Assembly (NCBI RefSeq): GCF_023008245.1
Contig: NZ_CP090145.1
Span: 1,550,001 to 1,614,000, forward strand
DNA from: Flavobacterium sediminilitoris
GTDB taxonomy: Bacteria; Bacteroidota; Bacteroidia; Flavobacteriales; Flavobacteriaceae
DNA: 64,000 nt
Direction of reading: 5' to 3'
Part shown: in pieces, positions 40,305 to 57,092 of the stretch
Layout of the letters: every line of letters starts with the position of its first letter
Position numbering within the stretch: position 1 is the stretch's first letter
Made by a program: the position numbers and the translations under genes
Notes under the pieces: model-generated
What the model saw: the letters and a program-made list of their open reading frames with translations, nothing else
Database searches by the model: none
What the model was told of the DNA's origin: nothing

Positions 40305-43300
40305 ATGAAATTTATAAAACAATCCTCTATTGATACTGTACTCGATGAAGCTTTAGTGTATGATGTAGTAAGTGCTACTGAAATATTAAAAAAACAAGGC
40401 GCAAACTTCTTTTGCTTATCACCTTTTACTTCAGAAAACACACCATCATTTGCCGTGAATCCTGTTAAAAATTACTTTTACGACAATTCAGCCGGCTTTG
40501 GAGGAAATGCTATTACTTTTTTAATGAAAAAGTATCCATCGATTTCATTTTTTGAAGCTATCGAAAAAGCTGCTGAAATCTGTGGAATTACTTTAGAATA
40601 TGAAGAACGTTCTGCTGATCAAAAGAGACTTGATGATGAAGATCAAGCTATGAAAAAGTTTGTTGAATTCGCAAACAAGGAATATCAAAAAGCCTTTAAG
40701 AATTTAGCAGATGATTCTTGGGCTAAGACAATGATTTTTAAAGAAAGAAACTATACTTCTGAAATTGTAGAAGCTTTCATGATCGGTTTTGCTCCTGAAG
40801 AACCTAAAAGTTATATTTCTACTCCAGCAATTAATCAAGGGATGTTTGAGCTTTCTAAAACTTTAGGTTTTACAAATACTTCGAACAATATTTCTTATGA
40901 CTTCTTCAGAAATAGAATTATGTTTCCCATCCACAACGATAAAGGAATCGTAGTAGGTTTTGGAGGTCGAAAATCTAATGATGAATCAAATAAAAAGTAT
41001 GCTAAATATTTAAATTCTAAGGAAAGTAAGATCTATTTCAAAGACAAACTTCTTTATGGCTTGTATCAGGCTAAGAAATCAATAATAGTAGCCGAAAAAG
41101 CTGTTTTAATGGAAGGTTATACCGATGTAATTGCATCGCATCAGGCAGGACTTACAATTTCAGTTGCCACTTGCGGAACTGCTCTTTCTGAATTTCATGC
41201 AAAATTATTATCTAGATTTTCTAAACACATTATTTTATTTCGTGATGGTGATAAAGCTGGCCTAAGAGCTGTACATCGTGATATTGATATTCTTTTAAAA
41301 TTTGGAATAAAAGTTGAAGTTGTTATTTGTCCTGAAGGAGAAGATCCAGATAGTTTATCAAAACAATGTAATCTAGTGGATTTTGTCGAAAAAAACAGAC
41401 AAGATGCAATTACATGGAAAGCAAAATTTTTAAAGGAAGATTCTAAAAATCCAGAGATACCAAATCTGATTAAAGAATTAGAATTTCTTCAAAATAAAGA
41501 AATTGGAGAAATATATGAGAAGATAGTTCCTGACACGAACGAAGCTTACAAGAATGCTAATGCCGTTGAAAAAAGGATGATCAAGAAAGACAATGATCTT
41601 CTTTTTAAACAAATCTCTGAAATAGAAAGAGATTATAAAGCTCAAATCGAAGAGCTGCCAAAATTTGAACCTGAGCTAGTTGCTCAATCTGTAGAGAGTA
41701 TGGCCACTACTCTTTCATTAATACCTAATGAAATAGTGCTGCAGCATTATATAAAATTAGTTTCCAAAATTCTAGATCAGAAGCCTCAAATAATTACAGG
41801 AGTAATTCAATCTAAAAAGGAAGAAGCTCAAAAAAAGAAATCGGACCAGGAGAAAGAAACTGATGCAAAAGAGAGTAAACTTTTAAAACTTCCTGAAGGA
41901 GCAAAAAAGGATCAGTTCTTAGAAGACCGTTTCTGTGAGATTGGAGAGACTTATTATTTCATGGGTAAGAGTGGAGAGTTCTTTATCGGTACAAATTTCA
42001 CCGTAATACCATTATTCCATATCGACGGAAATCAAGAAAATAAACGTCTATGTGAAGTAAAAAACGTGAACGGTGCAAAACGATTAATTGACTTTGATTC
42101 AACAGACATTATCAACTTTACAAAATTCAAAGAGCGTCTGATCAAGGAGGGTAACTTTTTTTGGGAACCAGGAGCAACTAACGAAAATTTTCTCCTGGTC
42201 TCGAGAAAACTTGTAAACGAATTTATAACAGCTTCAGAAATCAAAACACTAGGACATCAGCAAAAGGAGGGATTTTTTGCCTTTGCAGATGGTATTTTCC
42301 ACAACGATCAATTTTTAAAAGTCAACAAATATGGAATTGTTCATGTGGAAGGCCTAGAAAAATCGAGTTCAGAATACAAAGCAGATGTTTGTCATTATTA
42401 TTCTCCAGCTTATTCTGAAATATACAAGTCAGCTCGTGAAGATGATGATCCATACGAGAATGATAGACACTTCATTTATAAGATTGCTCCTATCTCATTA
42501 GATCAGTGGATGATGCAGCTTGTTAAAGTTTTTGGAGATAAAGGAAAGCTAGGCCTGGCCTTTTGCATCGCTGCCAATTTTAGAGATTTATTTTTAGCAA
42601 ACTGGAAATATTTTCCCTTAATGGGAGGTTTTGGCCAGCGAGATTCAGGAAAATCAGGTTTTGGAAATTGTCTACAATCTTTCTTTTATTTCAATATCCC
42701 TCCTCTGGAACTAAACACTTCTACACTTGTAGGTATCTCAAGAAGATTAAGCAGAGTAAAAAATACAGTTGTTTTCTTTGATGAATATAGAGATGATATC
42801 GATGAGGATAAGCATCAACAATTAAAAGGTGGATGGAACGGCATTGGCCGTGAAAAAGGGAAAGGTGCAGAAACGAATAGAACCTCCAGTGATAAAATTA
42901 ATTCGGCTATTTATTATGCAGGCCAATATTTGCCAACAAAAGATGATGGAGCTCTTCCGTCACGCTCAATAATTCTAAATTTTGAACAAAAAGAACGTTC
43001 AATTGAAGAAAAAGAAGAGTACAATAAATTGATGAATTGGAACAAAACAGGAATTTCCTCTTTTGTACTGGATGTCCTAAAATATAGAAAATATGTTGCT
43101 GACAATATAATTAAAACTTACTCTGAAGTTCTGAAGGACTTAAAAAATTCATTGAAAGAAGAAGAAAACATTCAAAATAGAATTTTAGAGAACTACTTGG
43201 CCATTTTAGTAATTATGAAATTACTCCAGGACAAATTTACCTTTCCTTTTACTTATCAGGAATACTTTGATTTAACAAGAAGATCAATTATTGATAACTC

Positions 43301-43754
43301 CGATACGATATCTGATTCAGATGGTTTAGCCGCTTTCTGGAGAGTCATTGAATACTTGTCTACTCCTGGTCACCAGCGACAAATAAAAGAAGGTGAAGAT
43401 TACATAATTATAACAGATTCAATTGTGAATTATGTACCTAAAAAAGGAGAAAAAGCACAATGGAAAAACGAAAATAAGGACAAAGTATTATATCTCGCAT
43501 TTTCAAAGGTGCATCAAGATTATCACAAAGAAGTAACTAAGAGACAAGGTGAAGAAGTAATTCACGAAACGACAATTCGTAATTACTTAAAATCGAAAAA
43601 ATATTTCATTGGATTGTTTGCGAGCAAACGAATGGGGGATAGAACTCCTAGTGGGTACGCCTTTAATTATTCAATGATGCAACGCCTAGGAATTGTCAAT
43701 TTACATGACTCCAGCGATGATCAAACTGAAATTGATCTTCCTGAATCCTTTTAA
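40305..43754 (+). CDS. Primase-helicase fusion with degenerate CHC2 domain
   Basis: A 1149-residue replication protein. The N-terminal CHC2-like fold (residues 20-95) keeps the shape (FFCLSPFTSENTPSF then GFGGNAITFL) but the four zinc ligands of bacterial DnaG are replaced. A DnaG catalytic core follows with a TOPRIM domain: Glu270 in EGYTDV and the DGD pair Asp314 and Asp316. A linker with coiled coil leads to a C-terminal P-loop ATPase, Walker A GQRDSGKSG at 777-785 and Walker B VFFDEY with Asp826 and Glu827, probably a helicase. Primer synthesis and unwinding would thus be one polypeptide, as in T7 gp4 but with an unrelated-looking helicase part. Confidence 0.85.
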   Translation: MKFIKQSSIDTVLDEALVYDVVSATEILKKQGANFFCLSPFTSENTPSFAVNPVKNYFYDNSAGFGGNAITFLMKKYPSISFFEAIEKAAEICGITLEYEERSADQKRLDDEDQAMKKFVEFANKEYQKAFKNLADDSWAKTMIFKERNYTSEIVEAFMIGFAPEEPKSYISTPAINQGMFELSKTLGFTNTSNNISYDFFRNRIMFPIHNDKGIVVGFGGRKSNDESNKKYAKYLNSKESKIYFKDKLLYGLYQAKKSIIVAEKAVLMEGYTDVIASHQAGLTISVATCGTALSEFHAKLLSRFSKHIILFRDGDKAGLRAVHRDIDILLKFGIKVEVVICPEGEDPDSLSKQCNLVDFVEKNRQDAITWKAKFLKEDSKNPEIPNLIKELEFLQNKEIGEIYEKIVPDTNEAYKNANAVEKRMIKKDNDLLFKQISEIERDYKAQIEELPKFEPELVAQSVESMATTLSLIPNEIVLQHYIKLVSKILDQKPQIITGVIQSKKEEAQKKKSDQEKETDAKESKLLKLPEGAKKDQFLEDRFCEIGETYYFMGKSGEFFIGTNFTVIPLFHIDGNQENKRLCEVKNVNGAKRLIDFDSTDIINFTKFKERLIKEGNFFWEPGATNENFLLVSRKLVNEFITASEIKTLGHQQKEGFFAFADGIFHNDQFLKVNKYGIVHVEGLEKSSSEYKADVCHYYSPAYSEIYKSAREDDDPYENDRHFIYKIAPISLDQWMMQLVKVFGDKGKLGLAFCIAANFRDLFLANWKYFPLMGGFGQRDSGKSGFGNCLQSFFYFNIPPLELNTSTLVGISRRLSRVKNTVVFFDEYRDDIDEDKHQQLKGGWNGIGREKGKGAETNRTSSDKINSAIYYAGQYLPTKDDGALPSRSIILNFEQKERSIEEKEEYNKLMNWNKTGISSFVLDVLKYRKYVADNIIKTYSEVLKDLKNSLKEEENIQNRILENYLAILVIMKLLQDKFTFPFTYQEYFDLTRRSIIDNSDTISDSDGLAAFWRVIEYLSTPGHQRQIKEGEDYIIITDSIVNYVPKKGEKAQWKNENKDKVLYLAFSKVHQDYHKEVTKRQGEEVIHETTIRNYLKSKKYFIGLFASKRMGDRTPSGYAFNYSMMQRLGIVNLHDSSDDQTEIDLPESF

Positions 43755-44877: not shown

Positions 44878-45045
44878 ATGAGCAAATTTGAACAAAAATG
44901 GGATTTTACTTATGATAATAAACCCCTAAATCCTTACAATGCTAAAAATTCCAGAAGTTTTATCATAGCCCTCACGATTGGAGCTCTTATAGGCTCTATA
45001 ATTACAGCGATATTATTAATGACTTATTCAGTTTTTTTCTTATGA
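44878..45045 (+). CDS. Small single-pass membrane protein
   Basis: A 55-residue ORF. A polar N-terminal half (MSKFEQKWDFTYDNKPLNP) precedes one predicted membrane helix (about residues 30-52). Its stop overlaps the start of the ASCH-like gene by 4 bp (ATGA), which supports translation. No family was recognised; possible roles include membrane anchoring of phage replication or superinfection exclusion. Confidence 0.6.
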   Translation: MSKFEQKWDFTYDNKPLNPYNAKNSRSFIIALTIGALIGSIITAILLMTYSVFFL

Positions 45046-45668
45046 AAGCAAAACCAATAATTTTTAGTACAGAAATGGTACAAGCTATCCTGGAAGTAAG
45101 AAAATCACAAACTCGTAGAATGAATGGATTAAAAAAAATCAATGAATATCCAAATGATTGGGTTTTTGAAGATTTTGATTTTACAGGGAATTTTATTTTC
45201 TATAATAAAAGTGGTGATAAAATTTCTATAAAACCTCCTTATGAAGCTTCAGATGTATTGTGGGTTCGAGAGACTTTCGTGGAATTTGAAACCTGGAACG
45301 AATTAGAACAGATTTTTAGTTATCATTATAAAGCAGATTTTTATGATTATACACTGAAATATCGACCTTCAATTTATATGCCAAAAGAAGCCTGTAGGTT
45401 GTTTCTGAAAATTAAAAATATAAGAATTGAAAGGTTAAATGATATAAGTGAAACTGATGCAATTGCTGAAGGAGTTGAAAAGATAGCAGATTATGGAACT
45501 ACAGGATATAAACTTTACACAGAACCAGATGCAGCATATTCTGATATTGATGCCGTTTATTCTTTTGAATCTTTATGGGAAAGTATAAAAGGTAAGAAAT
45601 CATGGAGCTCTAATCCTTGGGTTTGGGTTATCGATTTTGAACAATGCAAGAAACCAAAAAACTTTTAA
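45042..45668 (+). CDS. ASCH-like phage protein
   Basis: A 208-residue protein matching a phage-borne ASCH-like family: N-terminal KPIIFSTEMVQAILEVRKSQTRR, the block SDVLWVRETF, RPSIYMPKEACRLFLKIKNIRIERLNDISETDAIAEG, and C-terminal NPWVWVIDF. ASCH folds are PUA-related and may bind modified or structured RNA or nucleosides; the role in phages is not known. It overlaps the small membrane protein gene. Confidence 0.8.
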   Translation: MKAKPIIFSTEMVQAILEVRKSQTRRMNGLKKINEYPNDWVFEDFDFTGNFIFYNKSGDKISIKPPYEASDVLWVRETFVEFETWNELEQIFSYHYKADFYDYTLKYRPSIYMPKEACRLFLKIKNIRIERLNDISETDAIAEGVEKIADYGTTGYKLYTEPDAAYSDIDAVYSFESLWESIKGKKSWSSNPWVWVIDFEQCKKPKNF

Positions 45669-45670
45669 TA

Positions 45671-45784
45671 ATGGAAAACGAAACATTCTTAAGAAAAGGG
45701 TCTTTTATTGTCGGATTTGTATCTGGAGTAATTGTAACCTTAAGCTGCTGCTTAATTATCCTTTACATATTTGTCTATCAATAA
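45671..45784 (+). CDS. Small membrane peptide, 37 residues
   Basis: A 37-residue ORF starting 2 bp after the ASCH-like gene. A short polar start (MENETFLRKG) is followed by one hydrophobic helix (FIVGFVSGVIVTLSCCLIIL). The close spacing and the start right after the upstream stop support translation. Function unknown; small hydrophobic proteins of this kind are common in phage early regions. Confidence 0.5.
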   Translation: MENETFLRKGSFIVGFVSGVIVTLSCCLIILYIFVYQ

Positions 45785-45800
45785 AAAAATAACTAATAGG

Positions 45801-45832
45801 AATTATCGGAATTTATCGGAATTCCAATAATT
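45801..45832. repeat. Imperfect inverted repeat with TATCGGAATT units
   Basis: AATTATCGGAATT (45801-45813) and its near-complement (45820-45832, one mismatch). TATCGGAATT occurs twice in direct orientation. A perfect version of the same hairpin is at 46105-46136, so the gene between them is flanked by related elements. Confidence 0.65.
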
Positions 45833-45850
45833 CCAAAAAATACAAAAATT

Positions 45851-46078
45851 ATGAAAAAATATATTTTAAGATATGCACTAACATTTTTCTCAGGTAGAAT
45901 TAAAGTAGGTCATATTGAATTTCTAGCAGAAAATTTAGAAAGTGCAAGATCAAAATCATTTGAAGTACTCTATGAGTGTTTAAAGGAAAAATCCATTAAT
46001 AATGGCGACAACGAATTATATTATTTTGAAAATTTAAAGAGTTTAAAAATAGTAGTTGCTGAAAATAACGATCAATAA
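45851..46078 (+). CDS. Small phage protein of unknown function
   Basis: A 75-residue protein (MKKYILRYALTFFSGRIKVGHIEFLAENLESARSKSFEVLYECLKE...) with an alpha/beta pattern. No family was recognised. It lies between two related TATCGG hairpins. Its last codons overlap a 31-bp sequence that recurs inside the gene at 50622. Confidence 0.6.
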   Translation: MKKYILRYALTFFSGRIKVGHIEFLAENLESARSKSFEVLYECLKEKSINNGDNELYYFENLKSLKIVVAENNDQ

Positions 46079-46093
46079 TCAAAAATCAATTAC
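46063..46093. repeat. 31-bp exact repeat, copy 1 (copy 2 at 50842-50872)
   Basis: The 31 bases at 46063-46093 are identical to 50842-50872. Here the copy spans the stop codon of the small gene; in the other copy it is coding, in a different frame. It ends 3 bp before the possible left boundary of the cassette array (GTTAACA at 46096). Confidence 0.8.
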
Positions 46094-46104
46094 AGGTTAA
46101 CAAT

Positions 46105-46136
46105 AATTATCGGAATTCTGAAAAATTCCGATAATT
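46105..46136. repeat. Perfect TATCGG hairpin
   Basis: A 13-bp perfect stem (AATTATCGGAATT with AATTCCGATAATT) and a 6-nt loop. It lies between two small genes and repeats the element at 45801-45832. It lacks a T run, so protein binding or RNA processing is more likely than termination. Confidence 0.65.
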
Positions 46137-46150
46137 CCTAAAAATATGAT

Positions 46151-46315
46151 ATGTACACAAAGTTAGAAATAGCTACAATTTTAAAAAATTGTAAATCAGT
46201 TGGAGAAGTCTTAAGCATAAGTAGAAGCATTCGCTTCCTTCATGAAATACATGATCAGGAATTGTATAATATTTCATATTTAATTGTAATACGAATTAAA
46301 AATTTTAAAAGATGA
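46151..46315 (+). CDS. Small ORF, 54 residues
   Basis: A 54-residue ORF (MYTKLEIATILKNC, then SVGEVLSISRSIRFLHEIHDQ). It is 15 bp after the TATCGG hairpin. The sequence is helical with no recognised family. Codon use is like the neighbours. Whether it is expressed cannot be judged. Confidence 0.45.
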   Translation: MYTKLEIATILKNCKSVGEVLSISRSIRFLHEIHDQELYNISYLIVIRIKNFKR

Positions 46316-46353
46316 TTACAGCGATTAAAGGTTTAAGATTATTAATAATTTAA

Positions 46354-46587
46354 ATGATAAATATGACAACAGATAAATATATTTCGGAAAACAGAACAGG
46401 GAGCTTTAAAAAAGGAGATAAAGTTGTAATGCACACTTGTGCTGAAGCCAATTATTATAAAGGTAAAATATGGACTTGTTTGACTGATAGCTTTTTAGAC
46501 AGAGGAAAACAAGAAGTTGTGTTCCTTGAAAATTTTAGCGGATGTTTTTCCGTTAGTTTTCTAGCTATTACACAAGCTGATCGTTAA
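46354..46587 (+). CDS. Cassette 1 gene: small protein of unknown function
   Basis: A 77-residue protein, possibly starting at the second Met (46363). The block GSFKKGDKVVMHTCAEANYYKGKIWTC suggests a small SH3-like or KOW-like beta barrel. Its stop codon TAA lies inside the right-hand core site of its attC-like element (CGTTAAC). No family was recognised. Confidence 0.6.
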   Translation: MINMTTDKYISENRTGSFKKGDKVVMHTCAEANYYKGKIWTCLTDSFLDRGKQEVVFLENFSGCFSVSFLAITQADR

Positions 46588-46655
46588 CGTTGAGTTTTAA
46601 AACAAACATTAAATTAAACCCAAAGCCGAAAATCATCGCAAAACACTTGTTATCG
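46582..46655 (+). repeat. attC-like site 1
   Basis: A 74-bp element with the outer cores CGTTAAC (46582-46588) and GTTATCG (46649-46655). Inner arm pairing (around GTTTT/AAAAC) is weaker than in the other sites. The GTTATCG core is the left boundary of cassette 2. Confidence 0.6.
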
Positions 46656-46681
46656 TTTCGGTTTTTTAAAATCTAAAACTT

Positions 46682-47095
46682 ATGAGTTGGAATCCTAAAT
46701 TTTTTATTATTTATCCAAGGAAAATAATAGCCGAAATTGAAAAATGTAGTACAGAATATCTTTGTGCTGGAAATTTAAGCGATAAATTAAAAGAAGTTTT
46801 AAACGTGAAGTCAATAGGTTCTGAATTAAAAATTATTTGGAACAACAATCATAAATGGCAATTGATTAAAGATTACGATTTAGAGATAATAGATTTAGAA
46901 GATTACGTAAAATCTGACTGTAGCATTCTCACGTTTAAAACAGAATTTTTAATGAAAAAATCAGTGAAGGCTTTGCGAAAATTAGGTGTAAAATCAGAAA
47001 TGATTTGCACTGATAATTATAGAGATGTTATTATTCAGCAAGCGTTTTACAAAAGGAATGGCGTTTTTTTCCACTCCAACGAAGCTGAACGATAA
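46682..47095 (+). CDS. Cassette 2 gene: protein of unknown function
   Basis: A 137-residue protein with mixed alpha/beta content and several Cys (IEKCSTEYLCAGNLSDKLKEVL). No family was recognised. The gene starts 27 bp after the cassette boundary and its TAA stop is inside the right core CGATAAC. Cassette span is about 46650-47095. Confidence 0.62.
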   Translation: MSWNPKFFIIYPRKIIAEIEKCSTEYLCAGNLSDKLKEVLNVKSIGSELKIIWNNNHKWQLIKDYDLEIIDLEDYVKSDCSILTFKTEFLMKKSVKALRKLGVKSEMICTDNYRDVIIQQAFYKRNGVFFHSNEAER

Positions 47096-47218
47096 CGGCT
47101 CGGATAAGATACGTTGCGATTTAATACACTAATTTTCGATAATAAATAAAACTTTATAAAATGAAAACACTTTTAAATTACCTACTAAATAAGCAATGGA
47201 TTTTATCTATTGTTATGT
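47090..47218 (+). repeat. attC-like site 2
   Basis: A 129-bp element with outer cores CGATAAC (47090-47096) and GTTATGT (47212-47218). The inner arm after the left core (GGATAAGATACGTTGC) is complementary in 12 of 16 positions to the arm before the right core. The long central part contains the first ATG (47161) of the next ORF. Confidence 0.7.
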
Positions 47219-47421
47219 GCTTTTTAAGCGATGACAAAAAAGAGCAAATATACATAGCACGATTCAGAGCTGAATTAGCATTTTGGGGACATGATGTTTC
47301 TGATATGACTGATGAAGAAATAAAGGAAGGTATTAATAAAATGAGTGAAATGGTTGCAAAATGCGGAATGACAACAAATGAAGTTACAGAAGCATTTAAA
47401 GCGTTGGCAAATTGCACATAA
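47161..47421 (+). CDS. Cassette 3 gene: small helical protein of unknown function
   Basis: An 86-residue frame from ATG 47161, but the cassette itself begins at 47212, where GTTATGTGC contains an in-frame ATG (47215). Starting there gives 68 residues (MCFLSDDKKEQIYIARFRAELAFWG...), fully contained in the cassette. The upstream 18 codons belong to the attC site of cassette 2. The protein is helical and acidic (DMTDEEIKEGINKMSEMVAKCG). No family was recognised. The TAA stop is inside the right core ACATAAC. Confidence 0.58.
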   Translation: MKTLLNYLLNKQWILSIVMCFLSDDKKEQIYIARFRAELAFWGHDVSDMTDEEIKEGINKMSEMVAKCGMTTNEVTEAFKALANCT

Positions 47422-47551
47422 CGAGTTGCCAGCTTCATTTCAGTTGCGTAATTCAAGACTGAACAAACCAAATAATCACTTAATAAAAATTCAAAAATGA
47501 ACAATTCAGATACAAACAAAACCGAGCAATTGAATGAAACTGCTGTTAAAT
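47416..47551 (+). repeat. attC-like site 3
   Basis: A 136-bp element with outer cores ACATAAC (47416-47422) and GTTAAAT (47545-47551). The left inner arm AGCTTCATTTCAGTTGC and the complement of the right arm AGCAGTTTCATTCAATTGC align with small gaps, so the site folds into a long imperfect hairpin. Confidence 0.75.
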
Positions 47552-47937
47552 GCAGGTTTTTTGCTCAATACTTAGGAAAAACTTTCATAAATGGGTTGGG
47601 TGGAAGTTCAATATTATGCCCTATTGATTTGGTACACATTCACGCTGATACAATTTCTGCTACAATGAAATTAAAACCGATTGACCACATTGAAGATGAA
47701 GATGCAATTGAAGTAGCTAAAATGTTTATCAAAAAGGAAGAAATAAGAGAGGAACTTATTTTTTGTGGACGAATATTCGCTACTTGTATTTTTGATAATC
47801 AAGATATAGAAGAAACTCAACTTTATAATGAGCATTGCAAAGCAACTGATTATTTACGCTCAAAAGGTTATGCTTTACCATTTATGGAATACACCGTTGA
47901 TGATTTAGTAAAAATGGATTGGGTACAGTTGGGTTAA
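47497..47937 (+). CDS. Cassette 4 gene: protein of unknown function
   Basis: A 146-residue protein. The first 16 codons (MNNSDTNKTEQLNETA) lie in the attC-like site of the preceding cassette; the frame then passes through the core GTTAAATGC (residues V-K-C). No in-frame ATG occurs near the cassette start, so this gene seems to depend on a start codon supplied by its neighbour. The rest (residues 18-146, for example LVHIHADTISATMKLKPIDHIEDEDAIEVAKMF) is a compact alpha/beta domain that I do not recognise. Confidence 0.6.
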   Translation: MNNSDTNKTEQLNETAVKCRFFAQYLGKTFINGLGGSSILCPIDLVHIHADTISATMKLKPIDHIEDEDAIEVAKMFIKKEEIREELIFCGRIFATCIFDNQDIEETQLYNEHCKATDYLRSKGYALPFMEYTVDDLVKMDWVQLG

Positions 47938-47943
47938 ACTTGC

Positions 47944-47997
47944 ATTTAACGTATGGTGGTATGGCATCGTTTTAATGTGCTATACCACGTGTTGTAC
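47944..47997 (+). repeat. attC-like site 4
   Basis: A short 54-bp element. Outer cores are ATTTAAC (47944-47950) and GTTGTAC (47991-47997); the inner arms GTGGTATGGCA and TGCTATACCAC pair with one G-T; the loop TCGTTTTAATG (47967-47977) is identical to that of site 6. Confidence 0.8.
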
Positions 47998-48034
47998 ATC
48001 TGTATTGCGGTTTTAAAGCACTAAATTTTGAATT

Positions 48035-49186
48035 ATGAACGAACATAGTAATAACATTTTTGAGCGTGGGCAAATTGCTGACGTAGGAAGCAAAGGAATA
48101 AACGTACTTTCTTTATTTAACGGAATGAGTACAGGACATACTGCACTTGATAATGTAGGAATAAAAGTAAATAAGTATTACAGTTCTGAATTAAAGCCTT
48201 ATGCAATAGAATTAACACAATATCACTATCCAGAAACCATACAATTAGGTGATGTAAATAATTGGCGAGAATGGGATATTGATTGGAAAAGTATTGATTT
48301 ACTTTTAAGCGGTAGCCCTTGTAAAGATTTATCTATTGCAGGAAAAAGAAAAGGGATAAACGGAAGTAATAGTGGTTTGTTTTGGAAGTTTATTGAAATA
48401 TACGAACATATTAAACAATTAAACCATAATGTAATATTCTTTCAAGAAAACGTTGGATCTGCACCTAAAGAAGACATTGGAATTATGAGTAGAGCAATGG
48501 GTGTTTATCCTGTAAGATTCAATAGCAGTTTGGTTACTGCTCAATTAAGAGATAGATACTATTGGACTAATGCAAAAACTAAACCCTTTGGAATGTTTGG
48601 CGATTTAGTTACAGATATTCCAGAACCAAAAGACAGAAATATAAAACTTTTTGATGTTATTACAGATGGTTGGACTAATAAAGAAAAAGCAAACTGCATT
48701 TTAGAAAGCGAAAGCAGAATGGCAACAAGCCAGGAAAGTCTAAAAAAACGATACGTTAAATATTTTAATACTATTGTCTATTTGGTTGAAGATGAAGTGA
48801 GAGTAAAGACAAATACTGTGAAAGGCTATGATGTTTTAACAGAAGAAGATTGTTTGAATTTATCTTTCCCAAGTAGCACAACGAGACGAGGAAGAGTAAC
48901 AAAAGGTAAAGCACCTTGTTTGTTGCAAGGAAACGAACCTTTGTATGTATTAAAAGATAAGCAAGTAAGAATGTTGAATAAGATTGAACTTTGTAGATTA
49001 CAAGGATTTCCAGATAACCATTGCGATATATTGAGTAGAAATAAAGCAGCAAGTCTTTTAGGTGATGGTTGGACTTTACCAATTATAGAACACATCTTCC
49101 AATATTTACCTTTTAAAAAAGCGAGGGAAGAAAAAAATGTTATTACGGAATATAAGCACAAACCTTTGAATAAAACAGGAACGTAG
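48035..49186 (+). CDS. Cassette 5 gene: orphan DNA (cytosine-5) methyltransferase
   Basis: A 383-residue C5-methyltransferase. Motif I is LSLFNGMSTG (residues 25-34), the catalytic Cys96 is in GSPCKDLSIAG (motif IV), ENV is at 138-140 (motif VI) and QLRDR at 170-174 (motif VIII); the C-terminal motif IX/X block is KIELCRLQGFPDNHCD. No restriction enzyme gene is adjacent. The GSPCKDLS variant is typical of phage-borne members. Such enzymes protect phage DNA from host nucleases. The gene is a complete cassette bounded by GTTGTACA and TGTACAAC. Confidence 0.9.
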   Translation: MNEHSNNIFERGQIADVGSKGINVLSLFNGMSTGHTALDNVGIKVNKYYSSELKPYAIELTQYHYPETIQLGDVNNWREWDIDWKSIDLLLSGSPCKDLSIAGKRKGINGSNSGLFWKFIEIYEHIKQLNHNVIFFQENVGSAPKEDIGIMSRAMGVYPVRFNSSLVTAQLRDRYYWTNAKTKPFGMFGDLVTDIPEPKDRNIKLFDVITDGWTNKEKANCILESESRMATSQESLKKRYVKYFNTIVYLVEDEVRVKTNTVKGYDVLTEEDCLNLSFPSSTTRRGRVTKGKAPCLLQGNEPLYVLKDKQVRMLNKIELCRLQGFPDNHCDILSRNKAASLLGDGWTLPIIEHIFQYLPFKKAREEKNVITEYKHKPLNKTGT

Positions 49187-49195
49187 CAATATTGT

Positions 49196-49329
49196 GTACA
49201 ACGTTCTCCAGTTTGCACGACGTTGCGTGCCTAAACACAGATGAACACAAAAATTAATAAACTTTAAATTTAAAAATTATGTTTACAAACAAAAACTTAT
49301 TTAGCAATGCGTGCAAACTGGTGTTATGC
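49196..49329 (+). repeat. attC-like site 5
   Basis: A 134-bp element with outer cores GTACAAC (49196-49202) and GTTATGC (49323-49329). The inner arms CCAGTTTGCACG (49208-49219) and CGTGCAAACTGG (49310-49321) are a perfect 12-bp inverted repeat, extended by GTTGC/GCAAT. The start codon and first 15 codons of the next gene lie within the element. Confidence 0.85.
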
Positions 49330-49521
49330 ACTGTTTTATTATTAACATTTACTTCTTGCGATGATGTTTTTCCAAGTTCAAATAAATTTATAATTACTCA
49401 TAGTTCAAGTTATGGTAAAAACACAAAATATATGGTAAAAGGAATTGATGGAAGAACATCATTTTTCTTTGAAAGCGATGAATTTTATAGAGTAGGAGAT
49501 ACATTACGTTTATCTAAATAG
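49279..49521 (+). CDS. Cassette 6 gene: small lipoprotein
   Basis: An 80-residue protein with a lipoprotein signal (KLVLCTVLLLTFTSC, lipobox Cys about residue 28) and a short polar mature part. The positively charged start of the signal (MFTNKNLFSNACK) is encoded within the attC-like site of cassette 5; only from LVLCT on does the sequence belong to its own cassette. A GTG at 49321 would be the only start at the cassette boundary. Function unknown. Confidence 0.65.
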   Translation: MFTNKNLFSNACKLVLCTVLLLTFTSCDDVFPSSNKFIITHSSSYGKNTKYMVKGIDGRTSFFFESDEFYRVGDTLRLSK

Positions 49522-49522
49522 T

Positions 49523-49574
49523 GCATAACACCAAAATAAGCAATCGTTTTAATGTTGCTTATTGACTGTTACGA
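49523..49574 (+). repeat. attC-like site 6
   Basis: A 52-bp element with outer cores GCATAAC (49523-49529) and GTTACGA (49568-49574), a 9-bp perfect inner stem (AATAAGCAA with TTGCTTATT) and the loop TCGTTTTAATG (49544-49554), shared with site 4. No cassette ending in TCGTAAC follows, so it closes the array. Confidence 0.8.
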
Positions 49575-49591
49575 CACGTTTCAATGTGTCG
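49572..49591. repeat. Hairpin at the right edge of the array
   Basis: CGACAC and GTGTCG flank the loop GTTTCAAT. The loop is close to that of attC-like sites 4 and 6, and GTTATTC follows at 49595, so this may be a decayed further attC half-site. Confidence 0.45.
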
Positions 49592-49609
49592 CTTAGTTAT
49601 TCCACACAG

Positions 49610-49657
49610 TCATCGGCTTTGCCGATGATGAAAAAACTTAAAGCCCGCTAGGGCTTT
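49610..49657. terminator. Two consecutive hairpins, the second terminator-like
   Basis: TCATCGGC-TTT-GCCGATGA (49610-49628) is followed by AAAGCCC-GCTA-GGGCTTT (49640-49657) with a T run. They separate the cassette array from the iteron block. Confidence 0.65.
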
Positions 49658-49680
49658 TCCTATTTCCTTCTTCCCCGCAC

Positions 49681-50063
49681 CCCATCATCTATAATAGTAT
49701 GGTCAAGAAGTTGAGCCGTTGAGCCGTTGACCCTAATTTGCGAAGCAAATTACTATAAATTAAGCTTCTGAAAGAAGCGTTCCTATTCTATTATTAAACA
49801 CCCCCGCACCCCCAATTAAAAAAAGCTTATAAGGAATAAGGTAGCAAAGACCTTAGTAAACGGTTCAACAGTTCAACGGTTCAACAGTATATGTATAACT
49901 GTTTGATATATATATAATTAAATCTATATATATATAATTAAATCGTGTTGAACTTGTTGAACTATTTTTAGTCGGTTCCTACAAAATCGGCTAAGTTCAA
50001 CGTGTTCAACGCACAATTTTTTATTAAGTGTTTGATTTTAAAATAGTTGAACTGTTGAACCTA
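49681..50063. other. Candidate phage replication origin: iterons and AT-rich tandem repeat
   Basis: A stretch without coding frames. GTTCAAC or its complement GTTGAAC occurs nine times in pairs or triples at 8-9 bp spacing: 49863, 49871, 49879; 49947, 49956; 49995, 50004; 50046, 50054; three related GTTGAGC/GTTGACC units stand at 49710, 49718 and 49726. Cluster orientation alternates. A 20-bp unit is repeated in tandem at 49905-49924 and 49925-49944 (19 of 20 identical, almost pure AT). Small hairpins with GAA loops are at 49735-49751 and 49764-49778. This resembles iterons beside an unwinding element. Confidence 0.6.
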
Positions 50064-50081
50064 TTTTACTGAAAAATGTCT

Positions 50082-50100
50082 ATTAATTAATGTATATTTG
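50082..50100 (+). promoter_or_regulatory. Promoter/operator module of the late region
   Basis: ATTAATTAATGTATATTTG: the same palindrome, spacer length and -7 box (TATATTTG) as at 38821-38839, with one differing base. It lies 27 bp before the first gene of the downstream block, so repressor or a shared activator may control both. Confidence 0.65.
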
Positions 50101-50127
50101 AATTTTAAAAATTAATCTTTTTTTAAA

Positions 50128-50565
50128 ATGAGTGAAAAAGCAATCATAACTGTATATTTTCCTGTAAAGCCACATGTTTACAAATTCCTGCAAAAAAAAG
50201 TAGGTGAAAAAATGGTGGTAACTAAAAACAATTTTTATGGTAATCTTGTTCTTGATGTTCTTTCTAAGAAGTACAGTGTTCTCGAAGCTGTAACAGATGA
50301 TCTTGTTTTTCCAGTTGATATTTCATTACGATACATTACTAATTATGGTGTGTTTATCGATCAGAATATCATTAGAAAATTTAATGCACAAATTGATAAG
50401 CAATTTAGAGAAGAACTTCGTTCCTATGTCTCAATTAATGCTAGCGCAAATAATTTACCAAAGAATGAAGCTATACGACAATTCATTTTTCATTATAATA
50501 TTACTGAAGAAGATATTAAAATGGAAACTTTAATTAAAGACATTGTTAGAAATGTTGTTTTGTAA
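50128..50565 (+). CDS. Phage protein of unknown function
   Basis: A 145-residue basic protein (MSEKAIITVYFPVKPHVYKFLQKKVGEKMVV...). The C-terminal half is helical with a possible helix-turn-helix at LPKNEAIRQFIFHYNITEEDI. It directly follows the second copy of the shared promoter module and the iteron block, so it could be an iteron-binding initiator or late regulator; no family was recognised. Confidence 0.62.
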   Translation: MSEKAIITVYFPVKPHVYKFLQKKVGEKMVVTKNNFYGNLVLDVLSKKYSVLEAVTDDLVFPVDISLRYITNYGVFIDQNIIRKFNAQIDKQFREELRSYVSINASANNLPKNEAIRQFIFHYNITEEDIKMETLIKDIVRNVVL

Positions 50566-50621
50566 GGACAAAATTATTTTTACACGATTTGTCCATTAAA
50601 AAATAGATAAAATTTAAAGTC

Positions 50622-51071
50622 ATGATAGATAATTTTTCACCAGACAATTATAAAAATATAACTAAGATTTCCATATTAGATGCAAAGAAAGTTTTTTATC
50701 CGTTAAAATATGTTCTAGAGAAAAGAGATATTTTAATTGATGAAGATTATTCACTGATCATTATACCTTTACCTGAAGATATAAAGTATCCTTCAAATAC
50801 TAAAATGACTGATGCAGGCATGATCTGGAATTATAAGGTAGAAATAACGATCAATAATCAAAAATCAATTACTGAGGCTAAGCTGTTAGAATTTGTAAAT
50901 AAAAAAGTAATTGTTGTTTTCCATCATAATGATGGAAAAATAATTATAGGTTGTAACGAGATGCCTCTCCAGTACATCTATGGAGATGACAATACAACTA
51001 ATCCAGCTGCGCATTGTGGTTATTCTGTAGAATGCCGTGGAAACTCCTATTTTTCAAAGGTTTCAACTTAA
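50622..51071 (+). CDS. Phage protein of unknown function
   Basis: A 149-residue protein of mixed alpha/beta character. It contains copy 2 of the 31-bp repeat as coding sequence (VEITINNQKSIT, residues about 74-85). No family was recognised; in position it stands before the prohead protease, where minor structural or head-assembly genes are usual. Confidence 0.62.
   Translation: MIDNFSPDNYKNITKISILDAKKVFYPLKYVLEKRDILIDEDYSLIIIPLPEDIKYPSNTKMTDAGMIWNYKVEITINNQKSITEAKLLEFVNKKVIVVFHHNDGKIIIGCNEMPLQYIYGDDNTTNPAAHCGYSVECRGNSYFSKVST
50842..50872. repeat. 31-bp exact repeat, copy 2 (copy 1 at 46063-46093)
   Basis: Identical to 46063-46093 over 31 bases, here in frame within the gene at 50622. The two copies enclose the whole cassette array and the iteron block. 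Confidence 0.8.
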
Positions 51072-51148: not shown

Positions 51149-52504
51149 TTGGCTAAACAAATTCATAATTTCTTTCAAGGTAGTCTTTATATTCAAGAAG
51201 CATATTTAGATGCTTTGATTCCTCTTTATTTCAAGTCGATAACATCTTCTGATGATTCTGATAATGGTAAAACAATTGAAGAATTAGAGAAATCTCAAAT
51301 TTCGTTTATAAATTCTTCTTCTTCCGATATTAACACTACTGAAAGTGCTGTTAAAGTAGTTCTTATTAATCTAATTGGTCCAGTTATAAAATATTACGAC
51401 TGGTGGTATGATATGTTAGGAACTCAAGAATACATGCAAATTTTAAATCGTTACAAAAATGATCCTTCAATTGCTGGAGTAGTTTTCAATATGGATACAG
51501 GAGGTGGTCAGAAATATGGAACTCCTGAATTTTTCGATTTTATTGCAGACTTTATTAAAGTAAAACCTTTGGTAATTTATACTAATGGTTTACTCTGTTC
51601 TGGTGGATATTACATTGCATGTCCTGCATCATATATAATTGCGAATAAGAGAGCTGATGCAATTGGATCAATTGGTATCTACACTGAAATATTTGACATA
51701 AATGGATATTATGAAAGTCTAGGTTTAAAGGTTCATACGATTTACTCTAATTTATCTTCTGAAAAAAATAAATCTTATAGAGATGTTATTGATGGAATTG
51801 ATAAGAATTATGAGAACTACAAAAAGAAAGAGCTTGATCCAGATGGTCAAATTTTTATTGACGATATGAAAAAATCAAGACCACAAATTAAAGAAGAAGT
51901 TTTTAAAGGTGGTGCATGGAATGGTGAAGAAGCTGTAAAAATGGGATTAGTAGACGCTAATGGTAGTCTTCAAGATGCTATTAATAAAGTACTAGAACTT
52001 GCACAGTCTAATCCAAAATCAAATTCAAATAATAATAAAAATTCTAAAAAAACGAGTATGTCTAAAAAAACGAAAAACTTCCCATTAATACAAAGTCTAA
52101 TTGGTGTTGAAGGTGAAGGTGTTGATACAATTTCAACCATAACAGGTAAAAAAGGAGTTCAACTAACAGAAGAACAGTTAGAGATAGTGGAAACTGCTCT
52201 ATCTGGAAATGAAGCAGCTCTTACTGCTGAAAAAGGCAAAGTGACTACTGCTCAAGAACAAGTTACTTCATTAGAAACAGCTGTAAATACGGCTATTGAA
52301 ACTGCAGGGTTAACAGCTTCAGTAGCTGCAGCTGCTTCTATTGAAGATAAAATTACTTTATTAGGAAGTAAAGTTGTTGAATTTGGAAAACAACCAGGAA
52401 AAAAAATCACTAATCCAAAATCAGAGGGTGATTCTTTTGAAGAAGAAAATTCGATTGTAGATGCAAATGCAGATCACAATAAGATCTACAATCAATTACC
52501 TTAA
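51149..52504 (+). CDS. Prohead protease (S49/SppA-like) fused to a scaffold-like C terminus
   Basis: A 451-residue protein starting at TTG; an in-frame stop at 51128 leaves no earlier ATG and the S49 domain needs this N terminus. The protease part (about 60-290) has the SppA/ClpP-like core IAGVVFNMDTGGGQ and the nucleophile Ser151 in LLCSGGYYIA; the Lys partner is probably in SSEKNKSY. The C-terminal part (about 325-430), rich in Ala, Glu and Thr, is a predicted coiled coil like scaffolding proteins. The protease probably matures the capsid encoded next. Confidence 0.85.
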   Translation: MAKQIHNFFQGSLYIQEAYLDALIPLYFKSITSSDDSDNGKTIEELEKSQISFINSSSSDINTTESAVKVVLINLIGPVIKYYDWWYDMLGTQEYMQILNRYKNDPSIAGVVFNMDTGGGQKYGTPEFFDFIADFIKVKPLVIYTNGLLCSGGYYIACPASYIIANKRADAIGSIGIYTEIFDINGYYESLGLKVHTIYSNLSSEKNKSYRDVIDGIDKNYENYKKKELDPDGQIFIDDMKKSRPQIKEEVFKGGAWNGEEAVKMGLVDANGSLQDAINKVLELAQSNPKSNSNNNKNSKKTSMSKKTKNFPLIQSLIGVEGEGVDTISTITGKKGVQLTEEQLEIVETALSGNEAALTAEKGKVTTAQEQVTSLETAVNTAIETAGLTASVAAAASIEDKITLLGSKVVEFGKQPGKKITNPKSEGDSFEEENSIVDANADHNKIYNQLP

Positions 52505-55069: not shown

Positions 55070-55804
55070 ATGGATATACAAAAATGGTTTGATGGACCAG
55101 GCACTTATAAAGAGGGATTGCAATTATATGCTTCTTTGCCTAATAAAAGTAATTTATTTCTTAAAAGCATTCAAAAGGAAAATGTTTATAATTTGTTGAA
55201 GTTGAAATACGAGCTTAAAAAAGCTTTAAATAATAATTCTGAAGTAACTATACAATTAAGTAAAAACGTTCCAACAGAATTACCTATAGTGGCTAAAAAA
55301 GAGCCGTTTCAACAGATCATTAATGAATCGGCTGTTCTTCTTCAGAAAGAAACAATGGCTAGTTATCCTATGGGGTTGCACTCTGTTTATAGAGATCGTA
55401 TTTCTAACTTTTACAATGCTTGTGAATTGAAATTCAAATTAAATGCATTACCTGCAGATGACGAAGAAGAGGCGTTTGATTTAATTATTCAGCTGGAGGA
55501 ACTTTGGGAAAGAATAGATCGAGCTTGGTTTGTCTTAAATCATTGGAAAGACTATGGGCGAATAATGCCTTTTGATACTTCAGAAGATTTCAAAAAAATG
55601 AATGCCATTCAATTAGTTAAACGAAGGGATCAGCTTCAAACTTCAATTTCCAAAAGAAATAAAACGTTGGAAAAAATAATTCAAGAAGTAGAATCTTCTC
55701 CAGAAGATCGTGTAAAGTTGAATTTACTTAATAGAAAAAAAGAACAGCTTCAGCAATTAATAATCGATTTAGAAACTATTAGAAATTTATTAAAAAATGA
55801 GTGA
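55070..55804 (+). CDS. Phage protein of unknown function
   Basis: A 244-residue protein, mostly alpha-helical, with a C-terminal coiled-coil region (about 175-244: LQTSISKRNKTLEKIIQEVE... QLQQLIIDLETIRNLL). The start MDIQKWFDGPGTYKEGLQLYASLP is distinctive. It overlaps the methylase gene by 8 bp. No family was recognised. Confidence 0.62.
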   Translation: MDIQKWFDGPGTYKEGLQLYASLPNKSNLFLKSIQKENVYNLLKLKYELKKALNNNSEVTIQLSKNVPTELPIVAKKEPFQQIINESAVLLQKETMASYPMGLHSVYRDRISNFYNACELKFKLNALPADDEEEAFDLIIQLEELWERIDRAWFVLNHWKDYGRIMPFDTSEDFKKMNAIQLVKRRDQLQTSISKRNKTLEKIIQEVESSPEDRVKLNLLNRKKEQLQQLIIDLETIRNLLKNE

Positions 55805-57092
55805 TTTATTATTAGCTCCATTGGAGTGGACAACTGAAAAAAGGAAAGTTTCTGATTTAATTCCTTATGAGTATAATCCTAGGAGGTTAACTGAAGATAA
55901 AAAGGAAAAATTGAAAGCAAGTTTAGAACGTTTCAATTTGGCCGAAATTCCTGCAATTAATACTGATAACAAAATTATTGCAGGCCATCAAAGAATTGTA
56001 GTTCTTCTTGAGCTTGGCCGTGGTGATGATTTTATCGATGTTAGAGTTCCTAATAGAACACTTACTGAAGAGGAATTTAAAACTTACAACATTAGTTCTA
56101 ACGTTCCTACAGGAGAATGGGATGTTGACATTCTAAATGCAATTTTTGCTGATATTGATCTGATGGGATTAGGATTAGATGTTAGTGCAATACCTCTTCC
56201 GGATTCAGATGTTCCTCCAGAACTTTTTAACGAAGAAGAAGATGAGTTTGAATTTGTATTGCCTGTTGATCCAATTAGTGTAACTGGAGATCTTTATGAG
56301 TTTAGAAGTTTGCAAAAAAAATTAACGCATAAGATTATCTGTGGAGATAGTAGAGATGTTTCGGTTTATGATAAATTACTCCAGGGCGAATTGTTTCGAC
56401 TTATTTTAACAGATCCGCCTTATAATGTCGATTATGAAGGAGGTACTAAAGACCGCTTGAAAATTCAAAATGACAAAATGAAAACCGATGACTTCTATAC
56501 TTTTTTATTAGAATTCTATACTGCAGCTTTTTCTAAAGCTTCAAAAGGTTGTCCTATTTATGTTTTTCATGCTGATACTGAAGGCGTAAATTTTCGTAAA
56601 GCTCTTAAAGATGCTGGGTTCAAATTATCACAGTGTTTAATTTGGTTGAAAAACTCTATTGTGATGGGTAGACAGGATTATCACTGGAAGCATGAACCTT
56701 GTCTTTATGCATGGAAAGAAGGCGAAGCTCATCCATGGTATTCAGATCGAAAACAAACTACAATTTTAGAATTTGACAGACCAACAAAAAGCGAAGATCA
56801 TCCGACAATGAAGCCTGTGCCTTTATTTGTTTACATCATTAAAAATAGCTCTAAGCAAAGGGAAATTATAGGAGATTGCTTTACTGGATCTGGAACGACA
56901 ATTATAGCATCTGAGCAAAGTTGGAGACAAGCTAGATGTTTAGAACTTGAACCAGGCTTTATTGATCTAACGGTAAAACGTTGGGTAAAATATATGCGAG
57001 ATAATCATTTGGAACATGAAGTTTATAAAAATGGACAAATTTTGTCCAAAACAGAACTTGACAAATACTTCGATAAAATAGAGCCACTGTAA
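55797..57092 (+). CDS. ParB-like nuclease domain fused to DNA methyltransferase
   Basis: A 431-residue protein. The N-terminal ParB/Srx-like domain (about 15-85) has IPYEYNPRRLTEDKKEKL and AGHQRIVVLLELG. The methylase part carries DPPYNV (Asp206) before FTGSGT (Phe362), the motif order of beta-class adenine-N6 or cytosine-N4 enzymes. Such ParB-methylase fusions are common in phages and mobile elements and work without a restriction partner. It sits directly before the terminase genes; methylation may mark or protect DNA to be packaged. Confidence 0.87.
   Translation: MSDLLLAPLEWTTEKRKVSDLIPYEYNPRRLTEDKKEKLKASLERFNLAEIPAINTDNKIIAGHQRIVVLLELGRGDDFIDVRVPNRTLTEEEFKTYNISSNVPTGEWDVDILNAIFADIDLMGLGLDVSAIPLPDSDVPPELFNEEEDEFEFVLPVDPISVTGDLYEFRSLQKKLTHKIICGDSRDVSVYDKLLQGELFRLILTDPPYNVDYEGGTKDRLKIQNDKMKTDDFYTFLLEFYTAAFSKASKGCPIYVFHADTEGVNFRKALKDAGFKLSQCLIWLKNSIVMGRQDYHWKHEPCLYAWKEGEAHPWYSDRKQTTILEFDRPTKSEDHPTMKPVPLFVYIIKNSSKQREIIGDCFTGSGTTIIASEQSWRQARCLELEPGFIDLTVKRWVKYMRDNHLEHEVYKNGQILSKTELDKYFDKIEPL

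Follow-up and report, generated by a model that had tools for sequence, protein, structure and literature searches.

The 64,000-nucleotide stretch of the Flavobacterium sediminilitoris genome analysed here (contig NZ_CP090145.1, bases 1550001-1614000 of a complete 3.9-Mb genome; hereafter the window) carries, inside a prophage, a row of five gene cassettes. With a probability of about 0.8, judged from sequence, we assign it to an integron-type system whose mobile unit is a hairpin, a gene and a TAAC core, and whose units would be moved by a predicted short Xer-like recombinase that is absent from this copy. Because related phages and a sister prophage in the same genome carry a recombinase at the 3' end of the array, it is more probable that the window copy is such an array missing its recombinase than that it strayed from an integron with the integrase IntI. 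The first-pass annotation of this DNA had described an array without integrase, which holds for IntI within the array and fails for the relatives.

The cassettes are consecutive (46649-49529), each opens with GTT plus 5-7 bases and closes with the exact reverse complement of its own opening over 8-10 bases (5/5), and hairpins stand between them; all five pairs listed in the first-pass annotation were found in place. As a chain, the matched ends score 21; none of 2000 dinucleotide-preserving shuffles of 45501-50200 scored above 14, and window tiles outside the array region reached at most 7. An earlier, looser scoring gave 21 versus a maximum of 18 in 200 shuffles. Single cores recur in the window (GTTATCG three times); the chain itself is unique. 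GTT and AAC are the constant parts of the cores, and the G/TTRRRY core that had been proposed did not hold, as GTTRRRY fits one window core of five (GTTAAAT). All array genes lie on the + strand, and three of the five cassette open reading frames (ORFs; first ATGs at 47161, 47497 and 49279) begin before their own GTT core, within the upstream hairpin. Six genes had been thought to be followed by an attC-type element each: this stands for the five matched cassettes with their hairpins and is weaker for the ORF at 46354-46587, which lacks a core pair and is followed by a half-degraded element.

The inter-core hairpins of the window are 40 or 115-122 bases long, with stem scores of 45.5, 29.0, 20.5 (the short one) and 33.5; over 99 sites the median score was 35.0, against 22.5 with swapped arms. 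An attC covariance model (R1) was built from 28 sites of other loci, none of them from the window, and its alignment contains compensatory changes at 17 of 24 stem pairs as well as G.T pairs at two positions in 28/28 and 25/28 sites. Scanned over the whole genome, with 150 of 9615 candidates scored, R1 gave 55 matches at E≤1. Five of the six window elements were among them, the best of all 55 being window 47090-47218 (78.9 bits), and the others 47416-47551, 49196-49329, 46533-46655 (31.9 bits, E 0.005) and 47944-47997 (E 0.2). On the window alone with default filters, 49196-49329 was the only match, and the last hairpin (49530-49574) was missed in both scans. A low-stringency Rfam search of 45000-51000 returned four matches only, all far under the gathering scores. 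A covariance-model search had been recommended in the first-pass annotation together with folding of the bottom strand; the former recovered five of the six elements, and the latter probably names the wrong strand. The stems of the 99 sites hold 269 G.T versus 108 A.C pairs, with G.T more frequent in 75 sites, A.C in 9 and neither in 15; since G.T exceeds A.C, it is the gene-sense (+) strand that seems to be kept able to fold.

The array lies between a phage primase and a head maturation protease, in agreement with its proposed location in a prophage; a tape-measure protein and a 399-aa (amino acid) phage integrase (L017 15498-16697) follow within 17 kb past the right side of the window. Of 31 window proteins tested, 10 have homologues in the sister prophage (L263, 20 kb examined), all collinear and among them a counterpart of the 527-aa window protein with 46% identity. 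At the position of the window array, which stands by itself, this second prophage has a row of three cassettes, their ends matched over 8, 9 and 8 bases, and after them a gene for a 267-aa recombinase (G000:C1:2243291-2244094). The recombinase profile had no match in the six-frame translation of the window, and the window array has most likely lost its recombinase gene.

With the 267-aa protein as query, the best 80 of 83 loci in IMG/VR were collected. By a permissive test, 66 of the 80 have matched cassettes in a chain (of up to 12) that ends 10-260 bases upstream of the recombinase. For a stricter set of 61 loci, 19 were dropped: nine were taken for near-duplicates, a judgement thinly based in the case of L151, and the others had truncated genes or insufficient sequence upstream. 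AAC followed by an [AT]TATAT site was present within 130 bases of the start codon in 53 of these 61, versus 27 of 2364 downstream control windows, and the complementary core of the last cassette was found upstream in 40 of the 53 site-bearing loci, versus 571 of 8269 random AAC. This recurring site, AAC plus a TATATA-rich block, is located between the last cassette and the recombinase gene. The longest ORF is on the + strand, toward the recombinase, in 192 of 196 cassettes with an ORF of at least 50 aa (from 253 cassettes in total, including duplicates, chance pairs, the window and L020).

The array recombinases counted are 263-287 aa long. Their catalytic set is complete and invariant in alignment A2 (R133, K158, H217, R220, H243 and Y252 in L027 numbering), and these residues presumably have the roles usual in the tyrosine recombinase family. 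Three scanned enzymes scored 173-182 bits with NCBIfam NF040815 (XerA; cut-off 220) and 140-151 bits with the IntI family TIGR02249 (cut-off 265), thus under both cut-offs. The L009 enzyme aligns with the solved IntI4 in two pieces with about 50 residues missing, and it does not have the IntI-specific insertion, with 32 residues where IntI4 has about 80. An AlphaFold model (mean predicted local distance difference test, pLDDT, 88; predicted template modelling score, pTM, 0.64) is nearest to XerA and IntI4, with fold matches to PDB 4a8e and 5hxy. In the tree, array recombinases and Bacteroidia relatives fall on one side (91/91), and IntI (100/100) and Xer (98/99) on the other; an earlier tree agrees in setting the array recombinases apart from IntI and host XerC/XerD. 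These trees took in seven or four IntI and two Xer rows, with which either IntI or Xer could be the nearest sister, and the cultured-phage enzymes sit on long branches. By these comparisons, the array recombinase is a predicted Xer-like enzyme outside the IntI clade. An IntI gene elsewhere in the genome had also been suggested as a check; none exceeds the TIGR02249 cut-off in this genome, where all 15 candidates were scored, nor in 38 viral records.

The polarity of the unit follows from stretches shared between loci and from the Freya borders described below. L110 and L120 share an identical 390-base stretch that begins at the preceding TAAC, covers hairpin and gene and closes with the TAAC of that gene, beyond which L110 meets an attI-like site and L120 another hairpin. 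Four of 12 such pairs run from TAAC to TAAC (L110/L120, 100%; L112/L171, 99%; L128/L135, 99%; L138/L182, 98%), and in L112/L171, too, the shared stretch gives way to the site in one locus and to a new hairpin in the other. No pair of the 12 shares a 3' hairpin together with a gene. As shared stretches carry the 5' hairpin and none the 3' hairpin with the gene, the 5' hairpin belongs to the gene, and the unit is likely hairpin, gene and TAAC, the reverse of the classical cassette order. The first-pass annotation had let the 3' element travel with the gene. Cassette 5 has a 91% identical copy between other neighbours in L020, with neither flanking hairpin conserved along with the gene. The roughly 90% identical methyltransferase genes of L020 (3957-5168) and L021 (3959-5166) are bounded by different cores, GTTGTACA/TGTACAAC in the former and GTTACCTA/TAGGTAAC in the latter. 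Between window 47991-49202 and L263 6147-7373, the first and last 85-88 bases are 80-83% alike and the proteins are about 22% identical; the methyltransferase body seems to have been swapped within a constant frame.

Cultured Polaribacter phages provide the closest view of whole units that differ. Freya_1-10 come from one host strain and were published as one species with genomes of 44.0-48.9 kb (PMC8776804), a paper whose main text does not use the words integron and cassette. Seven Freya isolates are identical around the recombinase except for stretches of 842, 902, 2891, 307 and 472 bases, each of which consists of one or more whole units. All six borders read ...AAC|. On the right, the differing stretches end at the site that precedes the recombinase, AAC|ACCCCTATAAC, in all but Freya_8, which misses an inner stretch; the 472-base stretch of Freya_6/7 is placed exactly at the site. 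The sequences right of the breakpoints are unlike one another, and the borders are exact all the same. Over the parts compared, Freya_3 and Freya_4 equal Freya_2 and Freya_7 equals Freya_6, which leaves seven array states in ten isolates. In Leef_1 matched cassettes end at the site AAC|GCCCCTATATA, Ingeline_1 has the recombinase and no clear array, and phage P12002L has three R1 matches and also matched cassette ends. Two cassette groups of P12002L (L227, minus strand, near 29237 and 37263) have the same 40-odd bases right behind their AAC, and these shared ends resemble two attI copies. Danklef_1-5 (L254-L258), sister phages of Freya, were considered as a natural recombinase-minus control, as the recombinase match is limited to residues 96-271 in all five; this use was rejected since one unit varies among them.

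Table 1. Features of the cassette row and its two phage landmarks (window positions).
Feature	Position	Strand	Details
Phage DNA primase	40305..43754	+	Left landmark; PHROG 6444; 39% identity to L263 732-4085
77-aa phage ORF	46354..46587	+	PHROG 32066; left edge of array; no matched core pair; not shown to be a cassette
First hairpin element	46588..46648	+	Right half recognisable, left half degraded
Cassette 2	46649..47096	+	Cores GTTATCGTT / AACGATAAC (9 bases); 137-aa ORF 46682-47095
Long attC-type hairpin	47097..47211	+	Holds first ATG (47161) of next ORF; model match 78.9 bits
Cassette 3	47212..47422	+	Cores GTTATGTGC / GCACATAAC (9 bases); 86-aa ORF 47161-47421
Long attC-type hairpin	47423..47544	+	Holds first ATG (47497) of next ORF; model match 49 bits
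Cassette 4	47545..47950	+	Cores GTTAAATGCA / TGCATTTAAC (10 bases); 146-aa ORF 47497-47937
Short attC-type hairpin	47951..47990	+	CGTTTTAATG loop; model E 0.2
Cassette 5	47991..49202	+	Cores GTTGTACA / TGTACAAC (8 bases); 383-aa C5-cytosine DNA methyltransferase, ORF 48035-49186
Long attC-type hairpin	49203..49322	+	Holds first ATG (49279) of next ORF; model match 45.8 bits, E 6.5e-8
Cassette 6	49323..49529	+	Cores GTTATGCACT / AGTGCATAAC (10 bases); 80-aa lipoprotein-like ORF 49279-49521 (named by eye)
Short hairpin	49530..49574	+	No matched cassette after it; no expected attI-like site or recombinase to its right
Phage head maturation protease	51149..52504	+	Right landmark; PHROG 53; 29% identity to L263 11390-12730

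The element at 46588-46648 is probably the 5' hairpin of the next gene, and in its right half it is similar to part of phage contig L027 (83.6% over 55 in blastn). At the other end, the hairpin at 49530-49574 is likely a remnant of a lost next unit. The ORF of cassette 3 has a further in-frame ATG at its core (47215), and either could be the start. Pfam and PHROGs scans of the array named little apart from the methyltransferase (PF00145, 1.7e-26), the only gene of the array with a clear name; a homologue of cassette 4 was found neither in 198 other genomes of the family nor in the viral-contig scan. Between array and head genes, both prophages have a non-coding stretch rich in short repeats whose sequence differs between the two (window 49700-50060, L009 3120-3420). 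Relatives of the head protease were found on three distant contigs, and the head gene cluster includes, at window 55797-57092, a ParB-like domain fused to a DNA methyltransferase (PHROGs).

Several observations weigh against an array built and moved by such a recombinase. The window copy has neither recombinase nor site, and there is no second copy of it showing movement. Among the 12 shared stretches, three have the 3' border only in common (window cassette 5/L020, L161/L168, L153/L177), four the 5' border only, with the hairpin or part of the gene, and one (L020/L021) neither; in the latter both cores changed together and still match, a pattern not accounted for by simple transfer of units. 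The stems of 37 of 99 sites are not clear of their swapped-arm scores, 14 of 80 loci have no cassette chain, and 8 of 61 lack the site motif as written, of which the cultured phages carry a variant. The loci themselves are on contigs, several above 200 kb, that are taken as viral from the IMG/VR call. P12002L has arrays of this type and no such recombinase among the matches listed. Two of the five Danklef phages carry a methyltransferase unit of 781 bases, again with an AAC border, despite the partial recombinase; therefore either the system can do without activity in cis or the unit changed before the recombinase was truncated. Moreover, homologous recombination between similar hairpins could be the source of some of the whole-unit differences.

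If homologous recombination between repeated hairpins, with no site-specific enzyme, had produced all of the variation, the arrays would be an instance of ordinary phage mosaicism. Between arrays, hairpins of the same class show about 87-98% similarity, which is enough for homologous exchange, and the Danklef unit, the differing cores of L020 and L021, and the resemblance of cassette 5 to its L263 counterpart mainly at the ends fit this explanation. It is nevertheless very improbable in our estimation, since the exact Freya borders are flanked on the right by unlike sequences, the cassette-specific core pairs indicate circularisation, and arrays and recombinase are tightly linked. We hold it just as doubtful that the short recombinase is the lysogeny integrase of the phage and that the array is a coincidental neighbour in an accessory region. 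The gene is annotated as an integrase and taken as a sign of a temperate phage, and the single integrase listed for Freya and Danklef (PMC8776804) counts against a purely cassette-related enzyme and leaves room for a role in lysogeny; Leef and Ingeline, however, have two integrases in the same table, a separate 399-aa integrase lies to the right of the window prophage region, the same kind of site ends the arrays in most loci, and whole Freya units differ exactly at that site.

A classical cluster of attC sites lacking integron integrases (CALIN), i.e., cassettes captured from an IntI integron, with the hairpin 3' of each gene, that persist in the prophage and have no enzyme of their own there, has slightly more to recommend it and is still improbable. 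Matched ends are compatible with either polarity, phage CALINs exist, IntI1 recombined one of the two P12002L attC sites tested (PMC9892861), and the chromosome studied here has large arrays with the classical ORF direction and the same attC type. Such an origin is at odds with the 5' hairpin carried in shared units, with three window ORFs that begin (first ATG) inside this hairpin, with the non-IntI recombinase and recurring site that arrays of this type abut, and with the failure to find IntI over the cut-off in the genome or in the viral records.

For the integron-type system with a short Xer-like recombinase, we propose that the enzyme would cut the folded + strand at AA/C, and that units would be excised and re-inserted at the site beside the recombinase's own gene. 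The window array would have lost both this gene and the site, and it may still be movable in trans, e.g., by the 267-aa enzyme of the sister prophage. The cassette genes are likely read from the phage operon or from their own promoters; because they point toward the recombinase, an attachment-site promoter pointing away from it could not serve them. Five of the ten largest cassette proteins scanned are DNA methyltransferases, and this cargo suggests that phages swap defences against host restriction.

Relatives of the system are present in Bacteroidia chromosomes. The genome studied here has two R1 clusters of superintegron size (G000:C1:2529926-2552155 and 2920334-2937591; L241-L245), in which 26 of 28 and 18 of 23 ORFs run against the R1 model strand, that is, in the classical direction. 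A Phage_integrase search found no match beside the former and only a decayed one near the latter. The decayed recombinase (G000:C1:2940151-2941849; L018, L013) contains stops, lies about 2.5 kb from the end of the chromosomal array and matches the IntI profile over positions 204-315. Longer relatives of the phage enzyme (294-524 aa, mostly 340-415) have attC within 1.5 kb on the 3' side in 8 of 27 loci. They had been regarded as enzymes without arrays, a view that was dropped once the model found attC beside these 8; the earlier loci had 1.5-kb flanks. In G290, of the same genus, 18 sites at 109950-145039 adjoin a longer enzyme at 146590-147633 (L249-L250), and 26 of 36 ORFs run in the direction of this enzyme; its matched-end chain of 32 is barely above the 27 reached in 30 shuffles. 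The first ORF after the longer G290 recombinase looks, by eye, like a reverse transcriptase. Longer Xer-like recombinases that end chromosomal attC arrays and are read toward the array were also seen on contigs in G643, G735, G949, G820 and G760. R1 matches occurred in all 10 genomes chosen for a recombinase match (eight of them preselected for a known site beside the recombinase), in 5 of 10 genomes of the class without such a match (22 matches in all) and in neither of two IntI genomes of other classes. IntI over the cut-off was found in 105 of 395 genomes of the phylum, with one of the same class among the carriers listed. Phage cassettes and chromosomal-array ORFs yielded one weak pair only, the L020 methyltransferase and a G290 ORF (27% over 118).

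We lean, by a modest degree, toward a wider hypothesis in which Bacteroidota have their own integron lineage, with Xer-like recombinases outside the IntI clade, a chromosomal and an inside-out phage branch that shuffle DNA-modification and accessory genes, and a hairpin type common to both. Superintegron-sized arrays and recombinases of about 350-400 aa, transcribed toward the array, would characterise the chromosomal branch, and short recombinases with genes in inverted orientation to the recombining core the phage branch. With one hairpin type recognised by both branches, an exchange of cassettes between phage and chromosome would be possible. Integron surveys search for IntI and attC. If true, the reading means that a cassette-shuffling system has been missed in a major bacterial phylum and its phages, and that phages possess machinery of their own for exchanging anti-restriction genes cassette by cassette. 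Integron function would then be separable from the IntI-specific insertion, which is considered a defining trait (PMC9668308) and held essential (PMC8138268). The Freya isolates with their Polaribacter host make the system directly testable. A literature search, with preprints and most subscription journals outside it, returned no paper on such a phage recombinase, on the inverted polarity or on a link to Bacteroidia chromosomal arrays; the IntegronFinder 2.0 paper, in the part consulted, names one complete integron in Bacteroidetes proper, that of Salinibacter ruber.

By definition (at least two attC, no integrase nearby) the window array is a CALIN, and the belief in the first-pass annotation that none was known from a Bacteroidota phage is superseded by published phage CALINs, including that of Polaribacter phage P12002L with methyltransferases (Qi et al. 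2023, PMC9892861). The published examples resemble ours in being phage-borne arrays with DNA methyltransferase cargo, and differ in being treated as integron components, the sections of that paper at hand reporting no phage recombinase of this kind; attC of divergent direction in P12002L were noted there. With XerA and XerC/D the array recombinase shares the best sequence and fold matches, and it is distinguished from them by its score under the NF040815 cut-off, its association with arrays and its position apart from host XerC/XerD in trees. Atypical integron direction is on record for Treponema-type integrons (PMC3607928), in which intI is read toward attI and the cassettes, whereas the recombinase of the phage arrays lies on the downstream side of the cassettes and is transcribed away from the site. 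Like IntI integrons, the phage arrays have tandem one-gene cassettes, matched cores at the cassette ends, hairpins with covarying arms and, in related phages, a tyrosine recombinase gene next to a site of whole-unit differences. Classical cassettes, however, have the hairpin 3' of the gene and recombine through the bottom strand (PMC9892861), while phage genes are inverted relative to the recombining core, the hairpin is 5' of the gene and the array is read toward a recombinase outside the IntI clade, without the IntI insertion and with cores that are not GTTRRRY. Judged on four such features tested, the system of the window array is, by prediction, integron-like and not a member of the IntI family.

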